Positions 21,904 to 24,979 of a stretch of 64,000 nt of DNA are shown here, in pieces (the first letter of the stretch is position 1; each line of letters starts with the position of its first letter). This stretch comes from Anaerolineae bacterium (GTDB taxonomy: Bacteria > Chloroflexota > Anaerolineae > JAFGEY01), in the NCBI GenBank assembly GCA_016783145.1, contig JADHXD010000002.1, forward strand, positions 1-64,000, given 5' to 3'. Below the pieces are notes generated by a model. That model had not been told where the DNA came from and did no database searches. It saw only the letters and a program-made list of their open reading frames with translations. The position numbers and the translations under genes are program-made.

Positions 21904-21944
21904 GCAAAGAAAGCCGGAGGCGCAGCGCTTGCTGCGCCCCCGGC
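21904..21944 (-). terminator. Intrinsic terminator of the NACHT-HEAT gene
   Basis: 14-bp stem GCCGGAGGCGCAGC/GCTGCGCCCCCGGC (one mismatch) with TTTCTTT tail on the minus strand. Confidence 0.7.
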
Positions 21945-21968: not shown

Positions 21969-24725
21969 TCAGGCTGCAGTGATCGACTTTAGGCAGTTGT
22001 AGGCCGCCTCACGGACGTTCGGCAAGAGATCCTCTTCCTGCAGGATCGGCTTGACCTGATCGACGAGATGCTGGTCACCTACCCGCCACAGCCCCAGTGC
22101 CCGCAGAGAGTCGCAGCGAATGGGGTCTGCGATCTTGCTGTCCTCTGCCAGCGCGAGCAGCGTGGAGGCAGCCTGATCCATCTCATCCAGTTCTGCCAGA
22201 TACATTGCAGCCTTGTGCCGTACAGCCGCCATGTAGGATTGCTCAGCGGCTGCCTTGAGATAGGTCAGCGCCTGCTCGTCCTCTCCCCACAGAGACAGGA
22301 GGTAGGCGATAGGAACGCGGAGCGGGTCGCTCTTTTCCTCAGAGTCGTACAGCGTCACATTCAAGGCCTCCACAACCAGGTTCTTGTGCTGGACGGGCAG
22401 GGACCCCAGCATCTCCGCCGCCGATCGGCGCACCCGTGGGTACACCTTTCTGTCCTGGATGACGCCGATCCACTCCCGGATGACATCTTCCCGGTTCGCC
22501 CCCAGCGTGCACAGGGCCTGCATGGCGGTCTCACGAACATCTTCCGTGGTGTTCTCTTCGGTCACCCAAACCAGCAACACAGAGATCGTCGCGTTGTCGA
22601 GGTCCTCGTCACCAGAAAAGCCCAGCTCTCCTAGGAAAGTAAGCGCTTCGTTCCGCGTGCTGCGATACAGGCTCTTGTCCGCAACCAACATCAGTAGATG
22701 TTGCACGCCCACATCGAGGTTCCCAGTCCGGGTGATGGCGCGTGCAGCGGCAAGCCGAACAAAATCTTTGACTTTTCGGTCTTTGCTCTCGGCGATCTCC
22801 AGCAGGGCCTCCAGTATGGTTTCGTCCGAGTACTCCAACTCACCCAGCGCATCCAGTGCCTCTCGCTGTCCAGGTGGGTAGACCTTGGGATTCCGCGCCA
22901 ACGCAAGCGCGATGTGGGCGGCTTCGGCCACGTTGCCCAGCCTGCCGAGAGCTCTGACAAGTTGGCTTCGCACAGAGTCATCGACCTGCTCATCACGCGC
23001 CAACTCCCATAGCCTCTCGGTAAGCTGTGGGTCCCTCCAGGCAGACAGTACGTGGAGCAGCCCCCGGGCAGCAGCGATCTGCACCGTGTACGGAACCTTC
23101 TCGTCCTCGTTCTCCGCGCGTGCCAGTGAAACAAGGGCATCGATGATCGCATCACCGTGTGTGTGGGCAGCGATCAGACCCAGTGATTCTCCCATAGCGG
23201 ACCGCAGATCGAGAGACCTTCCAGGATTGCGGATGCGGGCGAGCATGCTGTCCTCAACCTCTGCCTGCAGCTCTCCGTCCAGGACTCGGCGACTCGCCAG
23301 CTTCCCGATGGACGTGATGGCCGCCTGACGCAACAGCGTGCTCGCTTCGCCATCGTCCATGCAGACCTGCAACGCCTTGACCACGCGCCCGGCATCCGGG
23401 TGCCCTGGCTCTCCCAGGAAAAGAGCGGCTGCCTCACGAGACCACTCGTCTCGCTCACCATCCTCAATGATCTGCAGTGCTCGTTCCATGGCGTAGGGTT
23501 CGCCTGACAGCCGAAACAGCGCATCCATCGCATCGTGCCGTCCGGCCGCTTGTGGATCGGTCAACCAGTCCACCAGCCCGTCGATGATGGTCTGGCGCAC
23601 ACTTTGGTCCAGTCCGCTGGTCGCGCCAGCAGCTGCCAGTCCGTATGCCGCGGCGCGCAGGTGACGATGCAGGACTCTCTTCAGCGGATCGTTCTTTCCA
23701 GCCTCAAGCACTCGGGTGATCAACCTCGCCCAGGCATCAGGGTGGTCCTCGGCCAAGAACCGCCAGGTCAGTCCAAGCTTTGTACGCCAGGCCGCATCCC
23801 ACAGGTGGGAACGCACCTCGTCCCACAGAGCATCCAGTCCACTCTCGAGCAGAACGGCCTCGAGGTAGCGCGCGCCTGCAATGTCCTGAAGCAGACGAGA
23901 AGAGGCCATCTGCACCTCGGACTCTTTCTCTGTGAGGTCTGCTTTCACCTCATTCCACACCTGTTCCAGATCCGCAGCAGAGTACTCGCCCCACGGCACG
24001 AGAGCAAAGTGGGCGAACTGCTCCGGATCTAGCGATGGCTCGTAAGCATCGGCCCGTGCGGTCACGATGCACTTGCAGCGGGGATACTGCCGCGCCCATG
24101 ATTCGATTTGGCCGGCGACCCTGGCCCGGTCGTCCTGACTGGGGACCGCGTCCAGGTCGTCAAAGCAGAGCAACGCCTGTCCGCGCACGAGCATATCCTG
24201 GAACATCTGAGGGGGCAGGGAGAGGTCCATGTGCTGCTGCGCGTCCTCAGACAGGTACTCGGGCAAAGAACACTGTGAGGCCACCAGCTCGGGCAGGTTG
24301 ATGATGCACGTCAAGAAGTGCGCCCCTTCATTCGACGTCGACAACGGATGCGTCGCCAGGTCGCGCAGCGCGATGGTCTTTCCTGCGCCCGCCTCGCCCA
24401 GCAGAACGACGCGAGACTCGCGAGACACAATCTCCCGAACCGACGTTGAGGGACCAAACGGCGTCCGCCTGATGAGATCTATCGGCGGCTGCGCCTCCAG
24501 TCGCTCCCGGATCTGTGCCTCGTTGGCGCGCCTGCGCGCGCTGATCAGCGATTCTTTGGCTCGAGCCCATTCTCGCTCAGCGTAGTCTGGGCCGGGCCGA
24601 ACATACTGCGGAACATAACCTTCCTCCAATGTTGCGTCTGGTTGACCGATACGTTTCAAAACGCCATATCGCTTCGAAACTCGGTCTGCATAGTCTGCGT
24701 GCGTGCTCATAATCTTCTCCTTCAA
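21969..24725 (-). CDS. NACHT/STAND P-loop ATPase with C-terminal HEAT repeats
   Basis: 918 aa (likely start MSTHADYADRV); Walker A GEAGAGKT, Walker B LLCFDDLDAVPS, VTARADAY; many HEAT-like helices. Confidence 0.85.
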   Translation of the reverse strand: MKEKIMSTHADYADRVSKRYGVLKRIGQPDATLEEGYVPQYVRPGPDYAEREWARAKESLISARRRANEAQIRERLEAQPPIDLIRRTPFGPSTSVREIVSRESRVVLLGEAGAGKTIALRDLATHPLSTSNEGAHFLTCIINLPELVASQCSLPEYLSEDAQQHMDLSLPPQMFQDMLVRGQALLCFDDLDAVPSQDDRARVAGQIESWARQYPRCKCIVTARADAYEPSLDPEQFAHFALVPWGEYSAADLEQVWNEVKADLTEKESEVQMASSRLLQDIAGARYLEAVLLESGLDALWDEVRSHLWDAAWRTKLGLTWRFLAEDHPDAWARLITRVLEAGKNDPLKRVLHRHLRAAAYGLAAAGATSGLDQSVRQTIIDGLVDWLTDPQAAGRHDAMDALFRLSGEPYAMERALQIIEDGERDEWSREAAALFLGEPGHPDAGRVVKALQVCMDDGEASTLLRQAAITSIGKLASRRVLDGELQAEVEDSMLARIRNPGRSLDLRSAMGESLGLIAAHTHGDAIIDALVSLARAENEDEKVPYTVQIAAARGLLHVLSAWRDPQLTERLWELARDEQVDDSVRSQLVRALGRLGNVAEAAHIALALARNPKVYPPGQREALDALGELEYSDETILEALLEIAESKDRKVKDFVRLAAARAITRTGNLDVGVQHLLMLVADKSLYRSTRNEALTFLGELGFSGDEDLDNATISVLLVWVTEENTTEDVRETAMQALCTLGANREDVIREWIGVIQDRKVYPRVRRSAAEMLGSLPVQHKNLVVEALNVTLYDSEEKSDPLRVPIAYLLSLWGEDEQALTYLKAAAEQSYMAAVRHKAAMYLAELDEMDQAASTLLALAEDSKIADPIRCDSLRALGLWRVGDQHLVDQVKPILQEEDLLPNVREAAYNCLKSITAA

Positions 24726-24888: not shown

Positions 24889-24905
24889 AGTATACTGCTA
24901 CTATA
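24889..24905 (-). promoter_or_regulatory. Candidate -10 elements (TATACT, TATAGT on minus strand) downstream of repeat array
   Basis: Minus-strand TATACT at 24894-24889 and TATAGT at 24905-24900, 8-19 bp from the 11-bp repeats. Confidence 0.45.
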
Positions 24906-24913
24906 CCTGGCTC

Positions 24914-24979
24914 GCATTAGAACGGCATTAGAGAAGCGTTAGACAAGTGTTAGAAACCCATTAGATTCTCATTAGATCG
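24914..24979. repeat. Six tandem 11-bp direct repeats, consensus (G/C)CATTAGANNN
   Basis: TTAG at 24917, 24928, 24939, 24950, 24961, 24972: exact 11-bp period. Confidence 0.9.

Follow-up and report, generated by a model that had tools for sequence, protein, structure and literature searches.

A six-unit tandem array of the heptamer TCTAAYG, with an exact period of 11 bp, lies in front of a NACHT-HEAT gene in a 64,000-nucleotide stretch of the genome of an Anaerolineae bacterium (hereafter named the window). With good confidence, we interpret this array as the site at which a response regulator of the OmpR/PhoB family would activate a proteostasis (heat-shock-type) regulon shared across the Anaerolineae, to which the NACHT-HEAT gene would belong in this genome. 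The preliminary description of this DNA had suggested winged-helix activators of that family; the class of regulator stands, but the proteostasis target set had been missed. The gene set marked by the box is a previously undescribed heat-shock-type set, which is probably run by a two-component activator. Nothing relevant to a Chloroflexota heat-shock regulon with such boxes was found in the open-licence literature.

The array and the promoter of the NACHT-HEAT gene

TTAG starts at positions 24917, 24928, 24939, 24950, 24961 and 24972 of the window, and these six positions, the exact 11-bp period and the unit sequences agree with those given in the preliminary description. On the strand of the NACHT-HEAT gene (minus) the conserved unit reads TCTAAYG, followed by four variable bases (TCTAAYG-N4). 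From the upstream-most unit towards the gene, the heptamers are TCTAATG (24970..24976), TCTAATG (24959..24965), TCTAACA (24948..24954), TCTAACG (24937..24943), TCTAATG (24926..24932) and TCTAATG (24915..24921), the last of which is placed by its sequence and by an invariant geometry within the -35/-10 spacer region. The TTAG array was the sole run of four or more units of any 4-mer at periods of 7 to 30 in the 64-kb window, the longest runs in 20 simulated windows comprised 3 or 4 units, and the expectation for six-unit TTAG runs at 11 bp is approximately 1e-16. This confirms that the array is far above the chance level; TRF reported it merely as two weak overlapping rows.

On the same strand, the proximal heptamer is followed by a 9-bp spacer (CGAGCCAGG, 24906..24914), equal in length in the other promoters of the set, and by the -10 element TATAGT (24900..24905), identified by sequence and geometry. 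No sigma-70 -35 hexamer was found at the correct distance from TATAGT. The two -10-like elements noticed earlier beyond the array differ in standing: TATAGT has the conserved spacing, whereas TATACT (24889..24894) is present but off this spacing and is probably not the main -10.

The NACHT-HEAT gene extends from an ATG at 24710 to 21969 (21969..24710, minus strand) and is preceded by the Shine-Dalgarno-like sequence AAGGAGAAG (24714..24722); an alternative TTG start at 24725 is also open. The predicted leader of the transcript is about 183 nt. Since a strong intrinsic-terminator-like hairpin (21913..21944, minus strand) follows the gene, the unit is probably monocistronic and the array probably drives this gene alone. 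Pfam analysis identified a NACHT domain (PF05729, 1.2e-10) and HEAT_2 repeats (4.4e-24), which provide the P-loop domain and the repeat sensor region of a STAND ATPase.

Recurrence of the box in the genome and in the class

The preliminary description had proposed a scan of the genome for further arrays. The genome is a MAG (5-Mb assembly, 92% complete, 5.5% contaminated), and a search of it for three TTAGA units at 11 bp with at most one mismatch gave 14 matches at six sites, so that the 11-bp array is also present elsewhere in the genome and the check named there did not go against the activator reading; the reversed pattern gave none. On the TCTAA strand of all six sites the last heptamer is followed by exactly 9 bp and then by a -10 element (TATAGT, TACACT, TAATCT, TACAAT, TATAAT and TAGAAT). 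The genes located after the arrays encode a ClpB/ClpC-like ATPase, a pair of Hsp20 proteins, HtpG and the NACHT-HEAT protein; at one site the target gene runs off the contig, and another site lacks a clear coding target. A looser search revealed a weaker box in front of ClpB.

Three loci of this genome (L046, L047 and L049) deserve separate mention. The array with TATAAT (G000:C124:52-106, L049) precedes the gene cut by the contig end, and the likely ATG lies 6 nt after the -10, hence the transcript may be leaderless. At G000:C31:1650-1689 (L046) a complete array with its -10 is directed away from coding genes. The stretch it faces is closed by a hairpin of very high stability (fold z-score -6.7) at a distance of some 65-100 nt, and this array possibly drives a stress-induced small RNA. 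On its other side it lies just upstream of the TTGACG-TATACT promoter of an epimerase gene. Finally, two units in inverted orientation (G000:C55:15975-15992, L047) were observed upstream of the hrcA-grpE-dnaK-dnaJ promoter, which also bears a CIRCE-like inverted repeat, and double control of this promoter is possible.

Among 299 Anaerolineae genomes, three TCTAAY units at 11 bp were found in 19, with 4 matches in total for the reversed-pattern control. The genes after these arrays encode ClpB, DnaK, Hsp20, GrpE, HtrA and a site-2 protease, with UbiD, NEW3/ABC operons and unrelated genes in one genome (G047) as minority targets. Two TCTAAY units plus a -10 were present in 59 of the 299 genomes (about 105 matches against about 10 in the control), and approximately 22 of the first 30 such loci precede HtpG, Lon, GroES/EL, ClpB, Hsp20, CbpA or DnaK, a classification that is based on the N-termini of the translations and backed by Pfam for representatives. 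Overall, the box targets in the class are DnaK, GrpE, GroES/EL, ClpB, Hsp20, HtpG, Lon, HtrA and CbpA, and the boxes of the relatives carry 2-6 units. The three-unit array is nearly absent from the other Chloroflexota classes (four genomes). The search patterns were strict, and a box-negative genome therefore means little.

Two further observations were made on these loci. In G047 (family f12) a TCTAACC/TCTAACT variant, with C or T as the seventh base and the same spacing, precedes genes for receiver-domain proteins, a glycosyltransferase, GlmS and others (L101-L106, L108), perhaps reflecting a paralogous regulator with its own regulon. An operon of a NEW3-domain membrane protein and an ABC transporter is repeatedly found next to the box or as its target (L089, L114, L116), and adjoins HtrA in L114.

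The geometry of the promoters was analysed with 44 arrays collected without including the -10 in the search. TANNNT occurred at one offset (16), which corresponds to the 9-bp spacing, in 36 of the 44, and at any other downstream offset in at most 4; TG stands before it in most of the arrays, forming an extended -10. Shuffled DNA yielded no match to the position weight matrix of the box, whichever of the tried thresholds was applied. In a box of the OmpR/PhoB type, at least two units are directly repeated about every 11 bp, and the box stands where the -35 would be, with a constant distance to the -10. Here, six units are present at that period, no -35 was found and the distance is the same in 36 of the 44 arrays. 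The layout is that of activator boxes replacing the -35.

The putative regulator

The 11-bp period, the conserved spacing and the linkage to response regulator genes all support the OmpR/PhoB-type winged-helix reading of the preliminary description, and there is little doubt that the regulator belongs to this family. Among the 23 Trans_reg_C matches in the genome, one response regulator (C217:11876-12595, outside the window) stands out and is likely to be the one that reads the arrays in this genome. Its orthologues (63-79% identity among the matches listed) are present in about 230 of the 299 class genomes, as counted by hand with best E <1e-80, and pair with a GAF-PAS-HisKA kinase. An orthologue was found in 58 of 59 box-positive genomes, and the box in 1 of 69 genomes without an orthologue (Fisher 1.2e-6, uncorrected for relatedness). 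Many genomes with the candidate regulator yielded no detectable box under the strict patterns, and no orthologue was found in the box-bearing genomes G131 (two units) and G008 (three units) among the best nine candidates per genome that were scored.

The regulator gene adjoins dnaK, hsp20 or Zn_peptidase_2 in nine families (f11, f21, f27, f28, f34, f46, f48, f53 and f54), several of which have the box between the regulator and its neighbour. Linkage to hsp or Zn-peptidase genes was observed at 10 of 52 loci of this regulator and at 1 of 51 other OmpR-type loci, a control that is not flank-matched. The GAF-PAS-HisKA kinase lies head-to-head with an array-hsp20 unit in G005, and the array abuts the kinase-regulator operon in a Chloroflexi MAG (L189) and in G455, from another class of the phylum. 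Receiver and Trans_reg_C domains were confirmed by Pfam on the regulators of this genome (G000), L189 and L153 (a Bacteroidota locus); a regulator with these two domains is linked to the array through operons in relatives and is unlinked within the window. In this genome, the neighbourhood of the C217 regulator contains no hsp gene besides a DnaJ-VWA gene, and no box was detectable at the regulator gene itself. Autoregulation within Anaerolineae was rejected, as approximately 30 loci of the regulator showed no convincing box and one marginal match. The regulator scored below the cut-offs of the PhoB models TIGR02154 (198.3, cut-off 296.2) and NF053854 (175.2, cut-off 270) and of RpaB (NF045944; 227.7, cut-off 330). 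The closest named family is RpaB, well under its cut-off, and hence the name gives no functional hint.

Arrays outside the Chloroflexota were found by DNA-pattern search alone, and the recurring OmpR-type neighbour is therefore independent evidence for the family. A Bacillota MAG has an array of the same layout before an OmpR-type regulator gene. Seven Bacteroidota loci (L120, L134, L136, L144, L153, L169 and L171) show the order OmpR-type response regulator, kinase, TCTAAT array and outer-membrane efflux operon. Their geometry is unchanged, and they probably form a regulon for the efflux of metals or drugs. In Phycisphaerae (L129, L151), pstS is preceded by TCTAAY arrays, which represent a pho box of the TCTAAY type; L129 has additional pst genes and phoU-like genes.

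A related possibility is that the same heat-shock-type box is read by another protein with this DNA-binding domain, either a SARP/BTAD activator or the FHA-Trans_reg_C protein that occurs together with a Ser/Thr kinase. The geometry of SARP boxes is nearly equal: the repeats also have a period of 11 bp, and 8 bp separate the 3' repeat from the -10 (PMC10936776); here the distance is 9 bp after the heptamer. In G005 and G061 the distance between FHA-winged-helix genes and hsp20 arrays is 3-6 kb, and this genome encodes two or more such FHA proteins as well as proteins of the BTAD type. However, FHA-winged-helix genes were not found in the box-positive genome G105 and other f42 genomes, and they occur in box-free families. 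Neither were they found abutting the array, as the response regulator operon does. The BTAD-type genes of this genome are unlinked to the arrays, arrays with an adjacent BTAD gene were not observed, and the candidate response regulator consists of receiver and Trans_reg_C domains only, with no BTAD domain. This alternative is thus unlikely, and the OmpR/PhoB-type response regulator is preferred.

A role of the array as a repressor site, or as a known heat-shock operator (CIRCE/HrcA, HAIR/HspR or CtsR), is far less probable still. The target genes are indeed ones that class I and class III heat-shock repressors control. The CIRCE/HrcA operator is the inverted repeat TTAGCACTC-N9-GAGTGCTAA, which, by reading, is absent at the array; a sequence of this kind lies instead at the genome's own hrcA promoter. 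The array consists of direct TCTAAYG repeats and not of inverted GCACTC or CTTGAGT motifs, so that the symmetry differs, and the lack of a -35 in the NACHT-HEAT promoter fits activation, not repression.

A functionless simple tandem repeat is hardly conceivable: some matches elsewhere are indeed plain tandem repeats (Bacteroidales AS23ysBPME_26, Rickettsia), but in the arrays described here conservation is limited to the heptamer and does not extend to the 4-bp gaps, the -10 follows at a fixed distance, and in many families the array is found in front of the same functional class of genes. The Bacteroidales MAG AS23ysBPME_26 (L118, L133, L141, L146, L148, L159, L165, L177 and L181) contains many near-perfect TCTAATCTCGT-type 11-bp repeats that are not promoter-like; they are a dispersed repeat family of another kind.

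Comparison with known systems and proposed mechanism

Bacterial heat shock is usually taught as being controlled by sigma32 or by repressors (HrcA, HspR, CtsR). CpxR and CssR are OmpR-type response regulators that control HtrA-type proteases, as would be the case here, and answer envelope stress. They are not known to control the cytosolic DnaK/GroEL/ClpB/HtpG set, which is among the genes marked by the box here. The closest known system is the cyanobacterial Hik2/Hik34-Rre1, likewise a two-component system with a GAF-bearing kinase and chaperone targets, in which groES, groEL, dnaK2 and htpG are activated directly (PMC13421787). Rre1 is of the LuxR/NarL type and has the motif GTNCGGK, whereas the candidate described here has a Trans_reg_C domain of the OmpR/PhoB type and 11-bp TCTAAYG repeats. 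The Anaerolineae set, where chaperone genes appear as direct targets by promoter content, adds ClpB, Lon, HtrA and Hsp20. PhoB, also a winged-helix response regulator, acts on direct repeats arranged head-to-tail (the pho box), which overlap the -35 and are strictly spaced relative to the core promoter (PMC3348028, PMC10294691). The system proposed here has these features in common with it, and the TCTAAY array of a Phycisphaerae MAG precedes pst genes with the spacing found in Anaerolineae. The Escherichia coli pho box differs in its consensus, and the arrays analysed here reach six units and have proteostasis targets. SARP/AfsR shares the OmpR-type DNA-binding domain, but no BTAD protein is linked to the arrays.

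Judging from the target set and the kinase domains, heat or an unfolded-protein signal would activate the kinase. Phosphorylated monomers of the response regulator would then bind the TCTAAYG repeats head-to-tail and cooperatively, one per helical turn, as suggested by the geometry and the gene linkage. The bound regulator would cover the -35 region, its last unit lying 9 bp from the extended -10, and might recruit RNA polymerase by direct contact in place of a -35. The box genes would thus be stress-induced, and protein unfolding would switch on the NACHT-HEAT STAND ATPase together with HtpG, Hsp20 and ClpB-type ATPases. We lean towards the broader view that general heat shock in Anaerolineae is under positive OmpR/PhoB-type control on TCTAAYG, and that the NLR-like NACHT-HEAT protein shares this switch with HSP90, Hsp20 and ClpB. 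A second two-component design for chaperone control, with a different regulator family and in a large, mostly uncultured class, would widen the picture of heat shock. What the analysis offers for testing is a well-defined motif (TCTAAYG, 11-bp period, 9 bp, -10), together with a candidate regulator identified by name and a list of targets.

The NACHT-HEAT gene as a putative member of the regulon

Control of the NACHT-HEAT gene by the array is suggested by one promoter, which carries the longest array found in the genome. No orthologue of the protein was found at E <1e-25 in the other 298 class genomes, so its membership would be lineage-specific, and the gene looks like a recruit of this lineage to the proteostasis regulon; domain-level NACHT homologues had no box upstream. 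PADLOC and NCBIfam yielded no useful name: no PADLOC model of a known anti-phage NACHT system matched, and a weak match to RT_UG23 (1.9e-5) was obtained. For this gene, left unnamed by the databases, the promoter hints at co-production with HSP90, small heat-shock proteins and disaggregases, which, if true, would link a receptor with a putative role in conflict or quality control to proteotoxic stress. In several Anaerolineae, ATPase-winged-helix fusions (STAND-like NTPase plus Trans_reg_C; L252, L298-L301) adjoin a gene for a PspA-like coiled-coil protein, and the fusion is possibly the regulator of this PspA-like stress gene.
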